DNA of 64,000 nucleotides from an uncultured Verrucomicrobiota bacterium (GTDB lineage: Bacteria > Verrucomicrobiota > Kiritimatiellia > CAIVKH01). Each line of letters begins with the position of its first letter. Within the stretch, counting starts at the first letter, position 1. Below, piece after piece: positions 33,626 to 44,378 of the stretch. The translations under genes were made by a program, and so were the position numbers. The stretch is from assembly GCA_937872895.1 (NCBI GenBank), contig CALMUP010000023.1, positions 62,001 to 126,000 of the forward strand, read 5' to 3'. The notes under the pieces are model-generated. The model had not been told where the DNA came from and searched no databases. It saw only the letters and a list, made by a program, of their open reading frames with translations.

Positions 33626-33798
33626 CCATGGAGGAAGGCAAACCGAAGCAGCCAACCGAACCCATTCACCCGCACCGCATTGCACGGCACGCCTTTACGC
33701 TGCAGCCATGCACGATTCCGGCAGTTGAAGCCGGAGGGAACCCGACCTCCCGCCGAGCATCACCACGACGACCAGGTGCATCCACGCGACATCCGTCA

Positions 33799-33827
33799 TT
33801 GATACCATCCGCACGCCCCCCTACACT
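33799..33827 (+). promoter_or_regulatory. Promoter of the archaemetzincin-like/ankyrin operon
   Basis: TTGATA (33799-33804), 17-bp spacer, TACACT (33822-33827), then 6 nt to ATG 33834. Transcription should begin at or next to the ATG, giving a leaderless mRNA. The remaining bases between this site and the dnaE promoter (33626-33798) show no gene. Confidence 0.7.
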
Positions 33828-33833
33828 GCGTCC

Positions 33834-35096
33834 ATGCACGCCCGCACACGACACCTGACGCTGCTGGTCGCGGCCCTGTCCGCCTGCATCATGCCGGATG
33901 CCGGAAGCCAACACCCGGTCATGGAGAACCAGGGAAACACCGTCGCGGCGGAGGATGTTTCCGGAATCGTGGATGCCCGGCTCGAACAGGACGTGGCGAC
34001 GATCATTTCAGGCAATACCGTCTCCATCCGCCGCAACATCGACAAGCTCCACCTCCTGATCGGGCAATACCTTTCCGCTGGAAGAAAACCCGAGGCCATC
34101 GCCTTGCTGCGGACCGTCCTGACCGTCGAATCCAGCAACCTCGAGGCGCGCGTCACCCTGGCCGAACTGCTGGACAGCATCGGACAACCGGACGAAGCAC
34201 GACGCATGGCCATGGACGTGCTCAACGTCGCCGAGACGGAAACGCACCTGGCGCGCATCGATGCCATCGATCCATCGCTGCGCGACAACCTGGAAGCCAA
34301 CAACGCCTGGAACGCGTTCGACGCATCCACGAATGGACCGCGCATCGTGCTGGTTCCCGCAGGAGAGCACGACGGCTTTATCCTCCGGGAATTCGGAAGC
34401 CGCCTGAACAAGCTCCTCAAGATTCCGGTATCCATCAAGGAACCCGGGATCGATCAGGGAATACCGGAACGCGACCCCGGCGCGAAGTGGCTGGACACCT
34501 ATTACCGCCGCCTGGTCTACCGCCTGACCCTTGCGCAACAAGCCCTGCTCGGCCTCGATTTTGAGCCGACATCCGCCACGAAACCGACACGTGCGCAGAT
34601 GGAGACGCTGATCGACCGGTACCTGGAACTCGGCGGCATCACCACCAGCAACACCCTCGTCGCATTCCGGTCCACCCTGGCCGGATACGACTCCCGGATG
34701 CAATACGACGCCGACCGCCTCATCGCCGACACCAAACGGGCCTTCACGCCCGAACCCGGCGAGCAGATCCTGATCATCGCCGCCGGAGACATTTTCAGCG
34801 GAAACGCCAATTTCGTGTTCTGCTCCCCTCAACCACCCTTCGCCTGCATGTCGAATGCACGCTACTTCGGCGCCTACTGGAACGAGCCCGACTACCGTCC
34901 ACGCTTGATCAACCGTATGCTGCAAGCCGCCGTCTGGGGTGCCTTTGCCAACGCCGGCCTGCCGATGTGCACCACCCCGTACTGCATGCGTTCGTATGTC
35001 CATAATCTGCAGGAGCAGGATCGCAGCGAAAACCGGCTTTGCGAACCCTGCCGAAACCTCTGGAAAACCTATTCCGGCCATGAACCGACGCATTAG
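33834..35096 (+). CDS. Lipoprotein with an archaemetzincin-like domain lacking the zinc-protease site
   Basis: A 420-aa protein with a lipobox (LSAC, Cys18), so it is membrane-attached outside the cytoplasm. Residues ~70-140 form a TPR-like helical region. Residues ~168-410 follow the archaemetzincin pattern: PRIVLVPAGE start, SRMQYDADRL, GDIFSGNANFVF, and the cysteine set C379-x4-C384-x18-C403-x2-C406 that binds the structural zinc in that family. The catalytic HEXXHxxGxxH is gone: its five core positions read WGAFA (368-372), the glycine is kept, and the third His is Met. It should therefore be an inactive relative, perhaps a binding or scaffold protein. The stop overlaps the start of the next gene by 17 nt, so the pair is co-translated. 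Confidence 0.78.
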   Translation: MHARTRHLTLLVAALSACIMPDAGSQHPVMENQGNTVAAEDVSGIVDARLEQDVATIISGNTVSIRRNIDKLHLLIGQYLSAGRKPEAIALLRTVLTVESSNLEARVTLAELLDSIGQPDEARRMAMDVLNVAETETHLARIDAIDPSLRDNLEANNAWNAFDASTNGPRIVLVPAGEHDGFILREFGSRLNKLLKIPVSIKEPGIDQGIPERDPGAKWLDTYYRRLVYRLTLAQQALLGLDFEPTSATKPTRAQMETLIDRYLELGGITTSNTLVAFRSTLAGYDSRMQYDADRLIADTKRAFTPEPGEQILIIAAGDIFSGNANFVFCSPQPPFACMSNARYFGAYWNEPDYRPRLINRMLQAAVWGAFANAGLPMCTTPYCMRSYVHNLQEQDRSENRLCEPCRNLWKTYSGHEPTH

Positions 35097-37407
35097 ACCC
35101 GCCACAACCCGCCCGCCGACACGGCACGCCCGCCTCGTCCTCGGAGCCACTCTCGTGGCGATGCTCACCGCTCCGGTCCATTCTGTTTTCGCCGATGAAC
35201 CGGGCGATCCGGCGCGACGGGATATCCTCGCCGTCGTTGGACTCGCGCCGGATATCCAAAGCAACCGCCTGTTTACAACCATCCGATCGACCAACCTCAC
35301 CGAGTCGATCGAGGCAGGCCGCGAAGCCTTGGCTGCCGGCTATTCGTTGGGCGGACTCGGAGTCCTGCAACTGGCCGCCCTGTTCGGTGATCGCGACACC
35401 ATCGAACGGTTGATCGGACTGGGAGCCGATCCCGACGACCGGGCAGACCACCGGATGCCAACCCCGCTGCACCTCGCCCTCATGACCGGCGATAATGACA
35501 CCGCAACCCTCCTGCTGGATCACGGAGCGGCGATGGACACGGGCATCGGACGGGGCCGGTCAACGTTATCCCTGGCCGCCATGTTCGGCCACAACCCGAT
35601 CCTCGCCCGGATGCTCGCCGCAGGCATTTCAGTCAACCAGCCCGACCCCGGAGGTATGACGCCGCTCGCATGTGCCGCCAAAGCCGGACAGTACGACACC
35701 GCGGCCTGGCTGATGGCCCAGGGAGCCGACGTCCATGCCCGGGACCCGCAGGGGTTGACCCCGCTGCATTATGCCGCCATCGGGAACCACAGCAACGTCG
35801 TCACCCTGCTGCTCGACAACCAGGCCGACCAGGGCTTGCCGGACCGCGATGGACGCACCCCCGTATGGCTGGCCGTGCGACTGGCCCGGCTCGATGCCCT
35901 GCGCGCACTGCTGGCCCAACCCGGATTCCTCGGGATGGCGGATAACGAGGGCCGGTCGCCCCTGATGACGGCAGTCACGTTTGGACGCCATGACGTTCTC
36001 AACCTGCTCCTCGAGTCCGGCGCGGACTTCGCCGTCCGTGACGATCTACAACAAACCCTCCTTCACCATGCCGTGCGCATGCAGGCAACCAATTCCGTGG
36101 CCTGGCTGGCTGATCACACGGACCGGGATGCGCAGGACTCCGAAGGTTATACACCGCTGGCCCGGGCCATCAGCATGAAGCACGGCGAACTAGCCCGCCT
36201 GCTCATCCAGCGAGGGTCCGATGTGAATCGCACAAATAACGCGGGGTACTCCCCCCTGATGCTGGCCATCGATGCTCGCGGCCTCAGCCTTGTCCGCCCG
36301 CTTCTCAAGGCCGGCGCGGATCCGAACACCTCCCTGCCCGACGGCCAGACCCCGGTCATGCTGGCCGCCTACGCAGCAAACTGCCAAACCCTGGACCTGC
36401 TTTTTGCGGCGGGTGCCTCCGCAACCGGATTCACCCAGCGTGGCCACGGAATCTTTGATTTTGCGCTGGAGCAAACGAGCACGAAGAACATGGAGTGCCT
36501 GCTCGCGCACGGCGTCGATCCGTCGGTTCGTGCCCATCCGGAAAAGTGGCCGGTCGTGCTAACCGCCGCCTGGCGCGGCCGGGAGGACGTGGTCAACCTG
36601 CTGCTTGATCACGGTGTCGACATCAACACCGCCGATTACACCGGACAGACCATCCTGATGGTCGCGCTGCGCCGCGGACACACCGCCCTCGTCCATACCC
36701 TGCTTCAGCGAGGCGCGAATCCGGCCAAGCGGGCGCTCGGGTTCACGGCATGGCATTATGCCGTCGACCGGCAAATGACCGGGCTGGCGGAAACGCTGGC
36801 GGCACTGACCACCCCCGAACAACGCATGCCCACCAACCGCATCATGGTGTACTTCGATCTCGATGCCCCCCAGGCCAGCCAGGTTTCCGTGGCCGGGTTC
36901 TTCAGCGAGTGGAACAGCGAAACCCACCCGATGCGGAAACGGGAGGATGACGGATGGTGGTACACCGAGGTCGAGGTCTTTCCGCTCGAGTACAAATACA
37001 AGTTCGTCGTGGACGGCGATTGGATCCTGGATCCGCTCAATGACAACGAAACCAAGGACGGCAACGCCGGCTACACCGACTCGTCCTTCGTCGCCACGGA
37101 ACGCACACCGGACCAACGACCGGACAGGCCGGTCTCCCGACCCGACACATTCAAGGAAATCACCTTTGAACTTGTAACCAACGCCATCCGCAGCGCATCG
37201 GTGGCCGGCACCTTCAACGGGTGGAACACCCAGGCCCTGCGACTTACCCCGGTTTCAGACGACACGTGGCGCGGCACCATCCCGTTGAAGCCAGGGGACT
37301 ACGCATACAAGCTGGTCGTGGACGGCCGATGGATACTCGACCCCGCAAATCCGGATACCCTGGAGGTCGATGGCGTCACCAATTCGATGCTCCGCGTCGA
37401 TCCTTGA
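35080..37407 (+). CDS. Secreted ankyrin-repeat protein with two C-terminal CBM48/AMPK-beta-like domains
   Basis: A 775-aa protein. ATG 35080 yields MNRRIRPATTRPPTRHARLV, a hydrophobic core and VHSVFA cleavage site: a signal peptide with a long basic n-region. About 15 ankyrin repeats fill residues ~85-585 (units such as GLTPLHYAAIGNHSNVVTLL). Two immunoglobulin-like E-set domains of the CBM48/AMPK-beta glycogen-binding type follow: VSVAGFFSEWN with YKYKFVVDGDWILDP, and ASVAGTFNGWN with YAYKLVVDGRWILDP. The Trp and the VDGxW loop are the sugar-contact features of that family. Ankyrins with tandem E-set tails suggest an extracytoplasmic protein- and glucan-binding scaffold, coupled to the dead archaemetzincin upstream. 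The ligand is inferred, not shown. Confidence 0.85.
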   Translation: MNRRIRPATTRPPTRHARLVLGATLVAMLTAPVHSVFADEPGDPARRDILAVVGLAPDIQSNRLFTTIRSTNLTESIEAGREALAAGYSLGGLGVLQLAALFGDRDTIERLIGLGADPDDRADHRMPTPLHLALMTGDNDTATLLLDHGAAMDTGIGRGRSTLSLAAMFGHNPILARMLAAGISVNQPDPGGMTPLACAAKAGQYDTAAWLMAQGADVHARDPQGLTPLHYAAIGNHSNVVTLLLDNQADQGLPDRDGRTPVWLAVRLARLDALRALLAQPGFLGMADNEGRSPLMTAVTFGRHDVLNLLLESGADFAVRDDLQQTLLHHAVRMQATNSVAWLADHTDRDAQDSEGYTPLARAISMKHGELARLLIQRGSDVNRTNNAGYSPLMLAIDARGLSLVRPLLKAGADPNTSLPDGQTPVMLAAYAANCQTLDLLFAAGASATGFTQRGHGIFDFALEQTSTKNMECLLAHGVDPSVRAHPEKWPVVLTAAWRGREDVVNLLLDHGVDINTADYTGQTILMVALRRGHTALVHTLLQRGANPAKRALGFTAWHYAVDRQMTGLAETLAALTTPEQRMPTNRIMVYFDLDAPQASQVSVAGFFSEWNSETHPMRKREDDGWWYTEVEVFPLEYKYKFVVDGDWILDPLNDNETKDGNAGYTDSSFVATERTPDQRPDRPVSRPDTFKEITFELVTNAIRSASVAGTFNGWNTQALRLTPVSDDTWRGTIPLKPGDYAYKLVVDGRWILDPANPDTLEVDGVTNSMLRVDP

Positions 37408-37439
37408 TCGACCAGCACCGACCCGCCCGCGGGGATGCG

Positions 37440-40025
37440 TCAAACCAGCGGGTTGCGCACCCGCAACCGCCCGGCATGCCCGGAAACGCCGGTGACCATG
37501 CGCCGGATCATCGCGCCGAGGCTTTCGATGTTGGGCGACTCGAAGAACTGGCCGTGCGCGCCGTCGATCAAACCGACCTCGTACCCTCCGGGATAGGCTG
37601 CACGAAAGTCCGTATCGGGATCCACCCCGGGCACGGTGTACGGGTTGAGGTGGCTCTCCCGGCCGAAGACCAGCGCAACCCGTCCCGCATACGGACGGAA
37701 ATCCCGCAGCTCCATCAGGATCAATAACCCGATCTCCCGCCCCTCCGCCTGCAGGACATCCGCGACGGCACGCATGATCATCCCGCCCTGGCAATTGCCG
37801 CCGAGCACAAGCGGACCTTCCGGCTGGATGGCGTTGATCTCGGCGGCGTACCGGCGGGCCAGGGTCTCGATGTGCGTTGCGTCGTCGTAGGTGATGATCA
37901 GGTACCCCGAGCGCATCCCGTGCACCGGGATGTCCGCCCCGAGATGACCCGCCAGTTGCGTGAACTCGCGGTAACCCTGCAGGCACCAGAACAATCCGGG
38001 CGATGCCCCGCCGGCGTGCAGGGTCACCACCAGACCATCGTCGCGCCACCGGTGCCCGACCCAGGTATCCACGAAGTCGTGCTGCCGCGGGAGGATCATC
38101 GCCGGATCGGTAACCGGTACGTGCGTCTCCGCCACCGGCACCGCACCGGCAAGCGGCGCGATCATCCCGGACGCGGCGGGCGGTTCCGGTCCGCGACGAC
38201 GCGTCCACCAGGCCGCGATGCGCCCGCGCCAACCACCCCCCGCCTTCCGCTCGCTGCGCCGATCAAGCTCCGCGGCGAAATCAGCCAGCACCGGATACCG
38301 AAACACCTCCTGCACCGGAAGGATCACGCCGAAGACCGATTCCACCAGAGCCAGCATTCGCACCGCGGCCAGCGAATCACCGCCCGCCGTGAAGAAGTGG
38401 CTGTCCGGCCGGAGTCGATCCACCGGCAAGATCCGCGTCCAGACCTCTGCCAACGACCGCTCGGTCGGCGTGAACGACATCCCGCCCACCGCCGGCACAA
38501 CCTCGGCCGGCATGGCCCGAATCGCCCCGCGATCCACTTTGCCGCTGGGCGACAACGGCAGGACGGCAAGGAACACATACCGCGAGGGCAACATCGGGTC
38601 GGGCAACCGCTCCTGCAACCAGGTGTGCAATGCGGCCGAATCCGGGGCCCCGCCGCCTTTCGGCACGATGGCCACGACGATCGAGCGCATGCCCTCCGGC
38701 GTCGCGTACCAGGTTGCCGACGCCTGCGCCACCGCGGGGTGCTCCACCAGCACCGACTCGATCTCGGCCGGATCGATGCGCACACCGCGGATCTTCATCT
38801 GGTCGTCGTTCCGCCCGTGGTACAACAACAACCCTTCGCGCGACCACGACACCGTGTCGCCCGTGCGGTACACCCGCACCCCGTCGAACACCACGAACCG
38901 CTCGCGCGTCAGCGCCTCGTCGCCGTGATACCCGCGCGCCACCCCGAGCCCGCCCAGGTACAACTCACCCTCCACACCCTCGGGCACGCGCCGGCCCTCC
39001 GCATCAAGGATCAACACCTCGGTGTTGAGGAGCGGCTGACCGATCGGCACCGATATCGCCGACGCCGCATCGTGGGCGAGCCCTTCGGCGGTGATCCGGT
39101 AGCCGGTGGACCAGATCGTCGTCTCGGTCGGCCCGTACAGGTTCCACACCTGATCGGCCCGACCCGCCAGCACACGGGCCAGCGGCACCGAGATCGCCTC
39201 CGCCGTGCTGACCAGCACACGCAAGCGCGGAAAGTCCGGGACCCGGGCCAGCAACACCGACCACATCGACGGGCCGGTCTGCATGCAGGTCACGCCATAC
39301 CGGCCGATCTCCGCGGCGAGCCGCGCCGGATCCAGCAAGTCGGTCCGACCCCGCAACAACAACCGCCCCCCGGACACCAGCGGCAGGAAGATCTCCACGA
39401 CCGAGATATCAAACCCGATCGTCGAGACCGCGAGGTAACAATCGTCCGGCTGGAATCCGAACAGGCTGCGACTGGCCTGCAACAGGTTCACCACGCTGCG
39501 GTGCTCGATCCCCACCCCTTTCGGCCGCCCGGTACTGCCCGACGTGAACAGGATGTAGGCCAGGCGATCGCCGCCGGAGGCCACCCCGGCATACGGATCG
39601 ACCGCGGCATGCGGGATGTGATCGACATCAACGAGGTGTTTCGCCGCCCACGCATCACCACCGGATGCCTCCGGGTTCAACGTGGCGATCCGGGCACGGT
39701 GCGCGATCACCAGGCGGCAGCCCGACTGATCGAGGATCACCCGCTGGCGCGCCGGCGGATCATCCGGATCGACCGGCACATACGCCGCACCGTGCTTCAG
39801 GATGCCCAGCAACACCGCGATCATGTCCGGCGTGCGCGCCATCATCACCCCGACCGGCTCCTCCGCCCGCACCCCGTGCGCTGCCAGAAACGCCGCCACC
39901 TGCGCGGCGCGTTCCGCCAACGCCCCGTACCGGCACACATGGCCCTCGTCGACCACCACCGCCACCGCATCCGGCCGGACGCGCGCCACTGCGGCAAACA
40001 AGGCATACAGGTTCTCGTCGATCAT
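37440..40025 (-). CDS. Single-module NRPS-like protein (A-T-TE) with Cys-type thioesterase
   Basis: An 861-aa protein with no condensation domain. The adenylation domain (~1-505) has A3 FTSGSTGRPKG (160-170), A5 NLYGPTETT, A7 YRTGD, A8 GRNDDQMKIRG and A10 Lys496. Residues at the specificity positions read D-I-V-Q-V-T-L-I-W-K, closest to published glycine-type codes. The carrier domain has Ser551 in FFTAGGDSL. The thioesterase (~660-855) has GGNCQGG, with Cys745 in the nucleophile position, and His824 in DGAHGQ; the usual Asp position looks like Glu772. The ATG overlaps the P450 stop (ATGA). It is the last gene of a four-gene unit, so the tethered amino acid is probably modified by the enzymes encoded upstream, then released. 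Confidence 0.9.
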   Translation of the reverse strand: MIDENLYALFAAVARVRPDAVAVVVDEGHVCRYGALAERAAQVAAFLAAHGVRAEEPVGVMMARTPDMIAVLLGILKHGAAYVPVDPDDPPARQRVILDQSGCRLVIAHRARIATLNPEASGGDAWAAKHLVDVDHIPHAAVDPYAGVASGGDRLAYILFTSGSTGRPKGVGIEHRSVVNLLQASRSLFGFQPDDCYLAVSTIGFDISVVEIFLPLVSGGRLLLRGRTDLLDPARLAAEIGRYGVTCMQTGPSMWSVLLARVPDFPRLRVLVSTAEAISVPLARVLAGRADQVWNLYGPTETTIWSTGYRITAEGLAHDAASAISVPIGQPLLNTEVLILDAEGRRVPEGVEGELYLGGLGVARGYHGDEALTRERFVVFDGVRVYRTGDTVSWSREGLLLYHGRNDDQMKIRGVRIDPAEIESVLVEHPAVAQASATWYATPEGMRSIVVAIVPKGGGAPDSAALHTWLQERLPDPMLPSRYVFLAVLPLSPSGKVDRGAIRAMPAEVVPAVGGMSFTPTERSLAEVWTRILPVDRLRPDSHFFTAGGDSLAAVRMLALVESVFGVILPVQEVFRYPVLADFAAELDRRSERKAGGGWRGRIAAWWTRRRGPEPPAASGMIAPLAGAVPVAETHVPVTDPAMILPRQHDFVDTWVGHRWRDDGLVVTLHAGGASPGLFWCLQGYREFTQLAGHLGADIPVHGMRSGYLIITYDDATHIETLARRYAAEINAIQPEGPLVLGGNCQGGMIMRAVADVLQAEGREIGLLILMELRDFRPYAGRVALVFGRESHLNPYTVPGVDPDTDFRAAYPGGYEVGLIDGAHGQFFESPNIESLGAMIRRMVTGVSGHAGRLRVRNPLV

Positions 40026-41311
40026 GCGGGCTCCTCCCTCGGATACAAGCGCACGGTGAAGGTCGGCGCGGGCTCCCAGCCGTACGCCCCGCGAATCGGC
40101 GCGCCATCACCCACGGATTCGATCCGGTACCGGCGCGCCACCTCGCGCACCAGCAGCACCCCCAACCGGATCGCCACGTCAGCCAGCGGACAGTAATGCT
40201 CATCCAGGCCGAACGGCGCGAACCGGTCCGCCGGAAGATCGCCGTCGCGGAAACGCTCGGGATTGAACACGAAGGGCTCGGGAAAGTACACCTCGCTCTT
40301 GTGCGACTCCCACAGGCACAGCCGAATCATGGCATGCCGGGGAATGATGAACCCGTCAAACACGAGATCCTGCTCCGCCCTCCGGATCAACCGCTCGCTC
40401 TGGTCCATGCGGAAGGTCTCGAGTACGAAGGCGCGGGCCCGTGAATTGCCCGCGGCCGGTTCGGCATCCGGCTCGTCGGCGATGCGGTCGATGGTTGCCG
40501 GGTGCTGCCCCGCATACCGGAGCAGCCAGCGGTAGAAACCCTTCATGTCGTACCGGCCCATCTCGACCATCATGATCGCATGGCCGAGCATCGCCTCGTC
40601 CAGCGCCCCCGCCGCATGCAGGCGCCGCACCACCCCGCCAACGGCCGCAGGCCGCTCGCGCAGGTCGTCGCGGATCATCGTCCGGAGCGCATGGAACGCG
40701 GCCTCCTGGCGCGGTCCCTGGTTCCACACGAGCCCGTGCGGCCCCAACGCGCGGAACCCCGCAAGCAGACGCTCGGCCAAGGGCGAGCCGTCCGGCTCAC
40801 CGAAGAACACGCGGATCAACTGCACGCTCGCGATCTCGCTCAGGGTGGCGATCAACGCCTCCACCGACAGAGCCGATCCCGCAGGAAAACGCCGCGCATA
40901 ACCGGCCAGCCGCGTCGCGGCGATGCCGGCCAGGGCATCGGTTTGCTGCGCAACCGCCTCGTCCCGCAACGCAAGCACCAGGGCCTTGCGTGAGCGCCGG
41001 TGCGCCTCGCCGCGCATCTGGCGCAGAAAGCCCTCCGGATACAGGCGGGTCACGTCGATGGTCGCCGGGCGGATCCGCCCCTTGTGCTCGTGGATGAACC
41101 GCGTACACCGGTCGAGTCCGACCACGCACACCCACAACTGACCCCACGCCACCGCCTTGAACACCGGACCATGCCGCGCCGCCAGCTCCAGCAACAGGCG
41201 CTGGTTCTTCCTCTCCTCCGCATCGAGGGCGATCAGCCTGCCGGGCGGCAGCGGATGACGGGAAACAACTCCGCGCGCCAGGGCGTTTACCATCGGCCAG
41301 CACGTCGTCAT
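40022..41311 (-). CDS. Cytochrome P450 with atypical I-helix
   Basis: A 429-aa protein. The ExxR motif is E298-T-F-R301, and the heme loop reads PFGLDEHYC with Cys374 as thiolate ligand at normal spacing from FG. The I-helix, located by spacing from the following HP, reads EMGRYDM (250-256) where most P450s have AGxET; the acid/alcohol pair used for O2 activation is replaced by Tyr-Asp. This suggests peroxide use, isomerase-like chemistry, or carrier-bound substrates with substrate-assisted proton transfer. No ferredoxin or reductase gene is adjacent. Both ends overlap neighbours by ATGA, so it is made together with the GNAT and NRPS proteins. Confidence 0.88.
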   Translation of the reverse strand: MTTCWPMVNALARGVVSRHPLPPGRLIALDAEERKNQRLLLELAARHGPVFKAVAWGQLWVCVVGLDRCTRFIHEHKGRIRPATIDVTRLYPEGFLRQMRGEAHRRSRKALVLALRDEAVAQQTDALAGIAATRLAGYARRFPAGSALSVEALIATLSEIASVQLIRVFFGEPDGSPLAERLLAGFRALGPHGLVWNQGPRQEAAFHALRTMIRDDLRERPAAVGGVVRRLHAAGALDEAMLGHAIMMVEMGRYDMKGFYRWLLRYAGQHPATIDRIADEPDAEPAAGNSRARAFVLETFRMDQSERLIRRAEQDLVFDGFIIPRHAMIRLCLWESHKSEVYFPEPFVFNPERFRDGDLPADRFAPFGLDEHYCPLADVAIRLGVLLVREVARRYRIESVGDGAPIRGAYGWEPAPTFTVRLYPREEPA

Positions 41312-41913
41312 GCCGACCGCTCCGGTACCGCACGCAAACGTTCCGGACGGGCGCGCGAGCCAACGGTCCAGCGACCCAGCACGCGCAGGGTGAACCCCCG
41401 GTCCACCTCGCGTCCGTTCATTTTATCCTTGAAGCGCAAGGCGGATTGGTTGTCGTTCAGCGTGACGCTGTAGCATCGTGTGCGGCCCTTTGCCGCGAGG
41501 TCCCGGTGGAGACGGCGGCGAATCCTGCCGGCGAGACCCAGCCCCCGGTATTCCGGAAGGGTGTAGGCGTCGAACAGGTACGCCTCGCTCTCCAGCAGGG
41601 GGAAACAGTAGGTTTCAAACTGGAAGAGCCCGAACGAGGCCCACGAGAAGGCGACAACGCGGCGGTTCTTCAAGGCCGCCAGGCAGATATTGCGGCAAAG
41701 GAATCGCGCGCGAAGATCCTCGGCGCTGGTGGCGCGGCCCGGCAGGCACAACAGCTCATCCGTCCGCTCCTCGCCGATGTAGGCGAACTCGAAACCGGAA
41801 GGTGCTTCGCCTGGAGCCGCGGCATCCCCGGCCTGCACATCCTCCCGGAAAACCTTGTACCTTGCCAAGGAAACCGGGAACCGCACAACGGACGTTGGGC
41901 GCCGGCTCGTCAC
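41308..41913 (-). CDS. GNAT-family N-acetyltransferase
   Basis: A 201-aa protein starting at GTG 41913, overlapping the DUF849 stop (GTGA). The GNAT core is in the C-terminal half: AYLFDAYTLPEYRGLGLAGR is strand 4 plus the acetyl-CoA pyrophosphate loop (R-G-x-G-x-A/G), and YSVTLNDNQSALRFKDKM matches the motif B region. It lies between the DUF849 and P450 genes in the coupled unit, so it probably acylates an amine or amino acid on the pathway. No protein-modification homologue is obvious to me. Confidence 0.83.
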   Translation of the reverse strand: MTSRRPTSVVRFPVSLARYKVFREDVQAGDAAAPGEAPSGFEFAYIGEERTDELLCLPGRATSAEDLRARFLCRNICLAALKNRRVVAFSWASFGLFQFETYCFPLLESEAYLFDAYTLPEYRGLGLAGRIRRRLHRDLAAKGRTRCYSVTLNDNQSALRFKDKMNGREVDRGFTLRVLGRWTVGSRARPERLRAVPERSA

Positions 41914-42746
41914 GACGGCAACCCCAGCAGCGCACGGGCCTCCCGATGCGTGCAGGGGGCCAGACCCATGCGCGAGGCGATTTCAAGGATGCGCACGAGC
42001 AGCTCGCGGTTGGAGGCCGGCTGCGACCGCGCGTCATCGATCCACAGGTTGTCCTCCAGGCCGATGCGCACCCCGCCGCCGGAGGCCAGGGCCATCACAT
42101 TCATCGGGAGTTGCGCCCGTCCCACGCCGCCCGCCGACCACAGCGATCCGGACGGAAGATCCCGGATCATCACGCCGAGGTGGAGCGGATCGGCCTGGGC
42201 GCACGCGATGTTCCCCAAGATAAGGTTGAAGTAGAATGGAGGCTTCAGGATGCCTTTGCGCTCGAGGTATTTCGCGTAGTTGATCATGCCGGCGTCGAAC
42301 ACCTCCAGCTCCGGCGTGATGCCGCGCTCGTGCATGCGCCGGGCGAGGGATTGGATCATGTCGGGGCTGTTGACGCTGGCCCCGGTGTTGAAGTTCAGCG
42401 AGCCCAGGGTCAGGCTCGCCATATCGGGCTTCTCGATGCCCTCGAGATTAAGGACCTCGGCCCGCTTCTCGAACTCCGGCCAATGGCGCCCGCTGGTGGA
42501 CACGCCGATGACCAGGTCGGGAAATGCGGAGCGGATGGACCGGATGATCGACCCGTACACCTCCTTGCGGTGGGTGGGGTGTCCGGTTTCCGGATCGCGC
42601 GCATGCACATGCACCATGTTCGCACCCAGCGCGACGGCGTCCCGCACATCGCGCAGGATTTCGTCCGGCGTGATCGGCACATGCGGGTTCATCTCCCGCG
42701 AGGGAATCATGCCGTTCGGGGTGAAGTTGAGCAGGAATTTTCGCAT
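41910..42746 (-). CDS. Beta-keto acid cleavage enzyme (BKACE, DUF849)
   Basis: A 278-aa TIM-barrel enzyme. The zinc-binding HxH is MVHVHARD (His46, His48); VIGVSTSGR, FNTGASVNSP and ELEVFDAGM are further family markers. Known members such as Kce cleave a beta-keto acid with acetyl-CoA, giving acetoacetate and a CoA ester. Substrate type varies widely in the family. The gene heads the tightly overlapped unit with GNAT, P450 and the A-T-TE protein; it starts 59 bp after rlmN. A TTGACG lies in that gap but without a good -10 box, so read-through from rlmN is possible. Confidence 0.9.
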   Translation of the reverse strand: MRKFLLNFTPNGMIPSREMNPHVPITPDEILRDVRDAVALGANMVHVHARDPETGHPTHRKEVYGSIIRSIRSAFPDLVIGVSTSGRHWPEFEKRAEVLNLEGIEKPDMASLTLGSLNFNTGASVNSPDMIQSLARRMHERGITPELEVFDAGMINYAKYLERKGILKPPFYFNLILGNIACAQADPLHLGVMIRDLPSGSLWSAGGVGRAQLPMNVMALASGGGVRIGLEDNLWIDDARSQPASNRELLVRILEIASRMGLAPCTHREARALLGLPS

Positions 42747-42805
42747 GATGCCTGCAACCCTTTCACAGGGTGGACACGACCGTCAAGGTTGGTTGAACCA
42801 CACGG

Positions 42806-43903
42806 TCAGGTGGCGGCCGAACCGGCCAACTGCCCGCAGGCCGCGGCGATGTCGCCGCCGCGCTCGACGCGGACCGTGCAGGGCACCCCGCGGTCGAGCA
42901 GGACCTGCTGGAACGCGTTGACGCGCTGGCGGCCGGACCGGCTGAGCGGTGTGCCCGGCACCGGGTTCCACGGGATCAGGTTGACGTGGCACAACAGGGG
43001 GTTCGGGCCGCGCAGCAGTTTCGCCAGCCGCTCGGCGTGCTCGGGCAGGTCGTTCTTCTCCTGCAGCAGCACGTACTCGAAGGAGACGCGGCGGTTGGTC
43101 TTCTCGACGTAGGTGCGCACCGCGTCGATCAGGTCTCGGATCGGATACCGCTTGTTCACCGGCATCATGTCGGCGCGCAGGTCGTCGTCGGGCGAATGCA
43201 GCGAGATGGCCAGGTTGACCTGCAACTTCTCCTCGGCGAGCTTGAGGATGCCGGGCACGAGGCCGACCGTGGAGACGGTAAAACTGCGCGCGCCCATGTT
43301 GAACCCGTTCGGATCGTGCAGCCGCTCCACCGCCGCCCACCAGTTCGCGTAGTTGTTGAACGGCTCGCCCATGCCCATGAACACGACGTTGCCGAGCGCC
43401 TTGGGCAGGTCGTCCGCGATCGCCGCCTTCTCGGCGCGGATCGTGCGCAACTCGCGCACCGCCCAGTACACCTGCTCGACGATCTGCCCGCTGGTGAGGT
43501 CGTGCAGGAAACCGAGCTTGCCGGTGGCGCAGAAGGTGCAGGCCATCGGACACCCCGACTGCGAGGACACGCAGACCGTCGCCCGGTCGCGGTACACCAT
43601 CAGCACCGACTCGACCGGTGACCCGTCGGCCATCTGGAACAAGGCCTTGCGGGTCAGGCCGTCGTCGCCGTGCTGCTGGCCGACATGCTTCAGCGTGAAC
43701 AGGTCCGCATCGCGAACCAGCCGCTCGCGCAACGCCTTGGGCAGGTCGGTCATCTCCTCGACCGAACCGACCACGTTGACGTGCAGGTGGCGGTAGATCT
43801 GCTTCGCCCGGAACCCGGGCTCGCCCCACGAGGCCAGCAACGCCGCCAGTTCGGGCGGGGTGAGATCGTACAGCGCGGGACGCGCATGGGCTGTTTCCGT
43901 CAT
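42806..43903 (-). CDS. rlmN: Dual-specificity 23S rRNA/tRNA methyltransferase RlmN
   Basis: A 365-aa radical SAM enzyme. The cluster motif is C118-PMA-C122-TF-C125, and the two catalytic cysteines align at C111 (VCVSSQSG) and C356 (AAACGQLAG). Further family markers are [22 protein letters not shown] and [10 protein letters not shown]. It methylates C2 of A2503 in 23S rRNA and A37 in some tRNAs. It begins 19 bp after the nucleotidyltransferase stop, so it may share that gene's transcript. Confidence 0.97.
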
Positions 43904-43922: not shown

Positions 43923-44378
43923 TCAACCCTTCGGTCTCCGTTGCTTGAGAACCTCGACGTCGGCCAGATCCTTCAACCGTCCGGACGCCGTCTTGTTGAT
44001 GATCAGGTCATCCACCGAAGGGACGCGGATCGTCAAACCATCCACATCGACCGACTCGGATCGGGCATAGGTTTCCTCAAAGACCAGACCCGTCGCCCCC
44101 GTGATGATGTCAATGCGGCGAGGCGCGACGCCGATCTGGAAAAGCGTGTCATCGCGTTGAAGGTCGGCGTTGCTGATGCTGTGGAGTGGCGCACCAAACC
44201 GTCCCAGGGCCCGGATGACCGCCTCGGCATTTTCCGGAGATGGCATCACCCATACATCCATGTCCATGGTTGCCCGCGGATAACCATGGACCGCGAGGGC
44301 AAAGGCTCCCACCAGCATGAACTTAACGTTCTCTGCGGCCAAGCACCGCAACATGTCGTTGTAATCTTCGTTCAACAT
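43923..44378 (-). CDS. Nucleotidyltransferase-fold protein
   Basis: A 151-aa protein. [25 protein letters not shown] (split by function: helix with G-x3-A-x4-G, then D-x-D) is the start of a minimal nucleotidyltransferase domain with the catalytic DMD pair; RRIDIITG supplies the third acidic strand. Such proteins are often part of MNT/HEPN- or AbiE-like toxin-antitoxin modules, or act alone. Its 5' end overlaps the small upstream gene by 56 bp, implying coupled expression. No HEPN gene is adjacent. Confidence 0.8.

Follow-up and report, generated by a model that had tools for sequence, protein, structure and literature searches.

The 64,000-nucleotide stretch of DNA analyzed here, referred to as the window, derives from an uncultured Verrucomicrobiota bacterium of the class Kiritimatiellia (contig CALMUP010000023.1). 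On its minus strand, four consecutive genes encode an enzyme of the beta-keto acid cleavage family (BKACE), a GNAT acyltransferase, an atypical cytochrome P450, and a synthetase composed of adenylation (A), carrier (T), and thioesterase (TE) domains. A check of open reading frames (ORFs) and motifs found full-length, overlapping ORFs with intact catalytic motifs at exactly the following positions:

41910-42746, minus strand: BKACE gene (PF05853, DUF849); Pfam BKACE match with E 3.5e-85 over residues 4-276, its full length
41308-41913, minus strand: GNAT acyltransferase; Acetyltransf_1 match with E 5e-5; coenzyme A (CoA)-binding motif RGLGLA at residue 123
40022-41311, minus strand: atypical cytochrome P450; Pfam p450 match with E 2e-15, in the C-terminal part only
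37440-40025, minus strand: A-T-TE protein, 861 aa; Pfam domains AMP-binding, AMP-binding_C, PP-binding, and Thioesterase
38511-40025, minus strand: adenylation domain, with a glycine-type pocket
38256-38483, minus strand: carrier (T) domain; phosphopantetheine-bearing Ser551 in GGDSL
37443-38198, minus strand: thioesterase; nucleophile Cys745 (GGNCQGG), proposed acid Glu772 and proposed His824

The junctions between these genes read CGTGACG, CATGACG, and CATGATC, corresponding to 4-nt overlaps of GTGA, ATGA, and ATGA, respectively. Four overlapping, intact, full-length ORFs are not a product of chance, and the 4-nt overlaps indicate translational coupling of the four genes. ORF positions and junction letters agreed with a previous sequence-only reading of this DNA, in which the same unit and overlaps were described. 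That reading further held that the four proteins are made in a fixed ratio; the coupling that this implies is retained, but 4-nt overlaps do not suffice to establish a fixed ratio.

Properties of the encoded enzymes

The Pfam scan of the A-T-TE protein showed no condensation domain, matching its earlier description as condensation-free. Core motifs A3-A10 were present in the A domain, as were D206 (D235 in GrsA) and K496 (517 in GrsA). Residues Q249 (278) and W305 (331) represent the Gln/Trp pair of the pocket of DhbF, in which this pair closes the glycine pocket (PMC11253843). In structural comparison, the pocket region was best matched by the DhbF glycine A domain (5u89, 100.6 bits), followed by 8www (71.3 bits) and the glycine-bound AB3403 (4zxh, 67.6 bits). 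The A domain is predicted from its pocket to be of the glycine type and to load glycine.

The Cys-containing motif GNCQG of the TE is shared with thioesterases of Rhodobacter sp. CZR27, Paracoccus aminophilus, and Methylomagnum ishizawai (42-48% identical). In ObiF, a Cys-TE holds a thioester until a nucleophile attacks (PMC6668435). The Cys nucleophile in the window TE argues for acyl transfer rather than simple hydrolysis. No BKACE or P450 was annotated near the Cys-TE synthetases of Rhodobacter, Paracoccus, and Methylomagnum. The Rhodobacter gene is located near genes for a glycosyltransferase and a polysaccharide pyruvyl transferase. The Cys-TE A-T-TE protein of P. aminophilus (pAMI4) carries a fused Mur ligase and is encoded beside DUF218 and GH3 genes; it may be a peptidoglycan-related synthetase.

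The P450 contains the heme-binding Cys374 (FGLDEHYCP) and an ExxR motif (E298TFR301). Its AlphaFold2 model (mean predicted local distance difference test score, pLDDT, of 64) gave 1614 Foldseek matches with E<=0.001, and the 50 matches listed were all P450s. The earlier designation of this protein as atypical was borne out by its I-helix, in which E250MGRYD255 replaces the acid-alcohol pair of the AGx(D/E)T motif, a pair that is usual but not universal in P450s. Some P450s without this pair use peroxide or perform non-standard oxidations. A non-exhaustive scan of the genome collection with two peptide patterns identified relatives in four Mesorhizobium loci only (32-34% identity), in which the ExxRYD I-helix is conserved. 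No match was obtained in the other 345 genomes of the class, in the other 387 genomes drawn from the phylum, or in phages or viral contigs. A glycosyltransferase gene follows the P450 gene in two inspected Mesorhizobium loci and on two Mesorhizobium plasmids. At two Mesorhizobium loci (L014 and L016), the gene for the ExxRYD P450 overlaps or abuts that of the glycosyltransferase, with a sulfotransferase-like gene alongside in L014. Assignment of the window P450 as ApyO was rejected, since its 55.9 bits fall short of the cut-off of 525 and reflect superfamily likeness only.

Most characterized BKACEs are known as degradation enzymes. In the window BKACE, the zinc ligands H46, H48, and E231, as well as R227 and D232, are retained (H46, H48, E230, R226, and D231 in Kce), while Ile occupies the position of Kce Glu14, the residue that binds the substrate amine. 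Position 85 separates the BKACE subfamily, with Ser in 24 of 25 members and Gly in seven of eight distant control BKACEs. Phe150 is located at the position of Kce Tyr145, where Phe is found in all 25 subfamily members (25/25) and in 7/8 of the controls. BsfD, from flavophos biosynthesis, is a DUF849 enzyme that acetylates a phosphonate (PMC12871164). A change of Tyr145 to Phe as a mark of BsfD-like acetyl transfer was considered and rejected: because Phe is so common among distant BKACEs, Phe150 does not predict BsfD-like chemistry. Flavophos was the relevant case in the literature on DUF849/BKACE proteins in biosynthetic clusters, and no literature linking BKACE to glycans was recognized. BKACEs with 46-47% identity also occurred in riboflavin-related clusters of Salmonella pRSE21 (L058) and a Streptomyces camelliae plasmid (L059), with genes for RibA, an S-adenosylmethionine-dependent methyltransferase, riboflavin synthase, and gamma-GT, and with rosB in the latter. 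These clusters recall flavophos, a lumazine synthase inhibitor made with another DUF849 enzyme.

Recurrence of BKACE-acyltransferase pairs and genomic setting

BKACE homologs with 45-61% identity were found in six other genomes of the class. The BKACE-ACYLTRANSFERASE pair recurs in two genomes from other families (G110 and G038), where the next gene encodes a homologous GNAT (33-37% identical to that in the window over the matched part); the ATG of this gene and the BKACE stop codon share a 4-nt overlap like the one seen in the window. When searched alone, the window GNAT family was detected in 3 of 346 class genomes, representing three families, and always after BKACE; there was no match on plasmids, in the other 154 genomes drawn from the phylum, or, with alignment A3, in viral contigs. 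An AlphaFold model of the GNAT (pLDDT 36) was of no use. One of the bacterial loci (L052) carries the BKACE-GNAT pair without a P450 or A-T-TE gene downstream, and at another (L053) an ORF judged by eye to be GNAT-like, but unrelated, stands beside BKACE. At L054, BKACE adjoins a hexapeptide acyltransferase. Such an enzyme is also encoded at L050, together with a DegT aminotransferase and glycosyltransferase-like and ABC-2-transporter-like ORFs, and at L055 BKACE lies between flippase-like and Mur ligase-like ORFs, all of these '-like' assignments having been made by eye.

Scanning with the BKACE alignment yielded 18 loci (L063-L080; 41-59% identical) in viral contigs, some of which are longer than 200 kb; one viral search pattern included a conserved motif of the BKACE subfamily. 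A terminase gene (L067) and a PhoH gene (L074) are consistent with phages, and no BKACE match was obtained in named phages or PHROG families. An acyltransferase was the direct neighbor of BKACE in 15/18 loci, often together with glycosyltransferases; since L063-L065 are near copies, the independent count is 13/16. None of eight distant BKACEs on plasmids (35-38% identity) had an annotated acyltransferase neighbor, and it is with these eight, rather than with a background rate in phages, that the 15/18 was compared. Several of these controls stood with pca, fumarylacetoacetase, or hydroxyacyl-CoA dehydrogenase genes. The viral neighbors were a 323-aa GNAT (L063-L066), a GNAT of the window family (L067, L070, and L071; hhalign 99%, E 1.5e-18), or a hexapeptide/NeuD-like protein (L069, L072-L076, L078, and L079), while a hexapeptide-type gene was one gene away in L077 and L080 and none was found in L068; Pfam confirmed the class in L063, L067, L069, L071, L074, L076, L078, and L080, the remaining assignments being based on sequence likeness. 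The junction was a 4-nt overlap in L066, L072, and L078, and an overlap of 7-35 nt in others. A viral scan with the phage GNATs matched solely the three BKACE contigs. On the BKACE tree, the type of partner changed at least nine times over six states, indicating that the partner was swapped more than once, yet it was more clustered than in 200 of 200 shuffles.

This recurrent neighborhood indicates that BKACE most likely supplies the donor used by the adjacent acyltransferase. At slightly under even odds, BKACE and an adjacent GNAT or hexapeptide acyltransferase would constitute an acyl-donor/acyl-transfer module, widespread and undescribed to date, with which bacteria and large phages attach unusual acyl groups to amino sugars, and which in the window has been combined with a Cys-TE synthetase that loads glycine and with a non-canonical P450.

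The surroundings of the four genes include two further features:

42806-43903, minus strand: rlmN, upstream neighbor outside the pathway; possible co-transcription
33666-42805, no strand assigned: 9.1-kb block between dnaE and rlmN, missing at the equivalent place in G002

The end of rlmN lies 59 nt upstream of BKACE, so that the four-gene unit may be co-transcribed with it, and a gene with ankyrin and CBM48-like domains converges on the unit from the downstream side. In G002, the sole other genome of the genus, rlmN and dnaE are adjacent. Besides the four genes, the 9.1-kb block contains a TPR gene (33834-35096) and the ankyrin gene (34939-37407), which has two CBM48-like domains. Overall GC content of the block is host-like, while its third-position GC is 0.75-0.86, as compared with 0.94 for rlmN and dnaE. 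This lower third-position GC fits acquisition, the direction of change being unproven. Values for the four genes are alike (0.78-0.86), and together with overlaps at all three junctions this makes them look like one acquired unit. The complete four-gene set was not found in a second genome among those searched. Comparison of gene order across genomes, suggested in the sequence-only reading as a check, thus gave a mixed outcome: the full order occurred only here, while BKACE and GNAT stay linked in relatives.

The host genome encodes an Sfp-like phosphopantetheinyl transferase and a second P450. A second A-T-TE protein of 833 aa, with a Ser-type TE (GTSFGG), is encoded on the same contig (G000:C23:28553-31054; L057 8554-11055), where it is immediately preceded by genes for an ExbD-like and a membrane-protein-like product. 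An AbiEii/DUF6036-like nucleotidyltransferase gene at 43923-44378 has no counterpart between rlmN and its neighbor in G002 and is possibly mobile.

Proposed pathway, alternatives, and comparison with known systems

The reading that we prefer, with a probability of about 0.4, is a single-carrier pathway to an N-acylated, oxidized glycine unit. As suggested by its family and linkage, BKACE would convert a beta-keto acid and acetyl-CoA to an unusual acyl-CoA and acetoacetate. With this acyl-CoA, the GNAT, whose linkage to BKACE is itself observed, may acylate an amine, most simply that of glycine, either free or carrier-bound. The pocket predicts that the A domain places glycine on the fused carrier, which would be armed by the Sfp-like phosphopantetheinyl transferase. 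The P450 might then oxidize either the acyl chain or the glycine alpha-carbon of the acylglycine on its carrier. Finally, as its Cys suggests, the TE would take up the unit as a thioester and pass it to a nucleophile, resulting in release of a small amide or ester or in decoration of a glycan or other larger acceptor. We infer these reactions, their order (including that of acylation, glycine loading, and oxidation), and the product; the established part comprises the coupling of the genes, the recurrence of BKACE with an acyltransferase, the glycine-type pocket, the Cys nucleophile, and the missing acid-alcohol pair. The sequence-only reading had envisaged an amino-acid-derived metabolite built on one carrier and released by the TE. 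The single carrier is kept in the present proposal, the Cys points to acyl transfer by the TE, and a free metabolite and a decorated glycan are both live outcomes. No described pathway with this gene set was found, as that reading had stated.

Several observations weigh against the proposed acylglycine pathway. A glycine-loading pathway with BKACE and P450 that could serve for comparison was not found, and DUF849 proteins are capable of other chemistry, as exemplified by BsfD (PMC12871164). Because the whole gene order occurs in one genome, only the overlaps tie all four genes together. Moreover, the nearest P450 relatives adjoin a glycosyltransferase rather than a nonribosomal peptide synthetase, and among BKACE relatives a link to glycan genes is no less frequent than one to a GNAT. 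The last two points bear on surface-glycan decoration, in which the TE would put an acyl-glycyl or oxidized acyl-glycyl group on an envelope amino sugar or lipid, comparable to AlmE-type glycine activation for lipid A. Since relatives of BKACE and GNAT mostly occur with acyltransferases and glycan genes, including polysaccharide loci (L050, L054, and L055) and glycosyltransferase neighborhoods in phages, and since the nearest Cys-TE synthetases either have genes for a glycosyltransferase and a polysaccharide pyruvyl transferase at their flanks (L009) or contain a Mur ligase (L012), glycan decoration has to be weighed against a free metabolite. It is nevertheless rather unlikely, and no glycosyltransferase or sugar gene was recognized in the 9.1-kb block or immediately beside it in the window.

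It is improbable that the unit merely brings together a self-contained BKACE-GNAT pair and an unrelated P450/A-T-TE pair in one operon. The L052 pair without downstream P450 and A-T-TE genes, and the Mesorhizobium P450s without the other three genes, would fit such chance neighbors, but 4-nt overlaps at 3/3 junctions and the similar third-position GC of the four genes argue against them. The sequence-only reading had pointed to P450 hydroxylation of a carrier-bound amino acid, which in systems of the NikP1/NikQ and NovH/NovI type leads to a beta-hydroxy amino acid derivative, here to be released in free form. A-T and P450 genes in one operon are typical of such systems and a TE is present. However, the predicted glycine pocket is at odds with beta-hydroxylation of the loaded amino acid, there being no beta carbon in glycine; the P450 moreover lacks the acid-alcohol pair, and BKACE and GNAT would be left without a role. 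This model is accordingly judged highly unlikely. RalA, TdiA, and EchA share the A-T-TE architecture without a condensation domain, but dimerization of aryl-pyruvates, as in ralfuranone and terrequinone formation, is extremely unlikely for the window protein. Aryl-pyruvate A domains are not known to have the amino-binding Asp235, while the window A domain keeps this residue (D206) and a small glycine pocket, neither of which is called for by an amino-free aryl-pyruvate.

If the proposed roles are correct, the acyltransferase-tied BKACE subfamily of bacteria and phages would serve biosynthesis by producing acyl donors, and unusual N-acyl groups on bacterial and phage-encoded glycans could be traced back to a gene. 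In addition, the four genes of the window would represent a compact pathway based on glycine, in which the P450 does not have the standard oxygen-activating residues.

In comparison with known systems, the window A domain resembles those of DhbF module 1 and AB3403, which are among its three best pocket matches, in its glycine pocket (Asp, Gln, and Trp) and complete set of A motifs, but the window A-T-TE protein stands alone and has no condensation domain. It likewise differs from the synthetases that share its Cys-TE, which are C-A-T-TE in Rhodobacter sp. CZR27 (C, condensation domain), Mur ligase-A-T-TE in P. aminophilus, and C-A-T-TE-sulfotransferase-TPR in M. ishizawai. The A-T-TE enzymes of ralfuranone and terrequinone formation take aryl-pyruvates, whereas the window A domain is of the amino acid (glycine) type. 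The Mesorhizobium P450-glycosyltransferase pairs share 32-34% P450 identity, the ExxRYD I-helix, and the GLDxHxC heme motif with the window, but have no BKACE, GNAT, or A-T-TE gene nearby. BsfD is likewise a DUF849 enzyme within a biosynthetic cluster and has Phe at the Kce Tyr145 position, although the occurrence of this Phe in other BKACEs means that it is no BsfD marker. The bacterial and phage BKACE-acyltransferase pairs, which occur without P450 or A-T-TE genes and in many cases with a hexapeptide acyltransferase and glycosyltransferases, resemble the window in BKACE sequence (45-61% identical in bacteria, 41-59% in viral contigs) and in the acyltransferase that is usually its neighbor.

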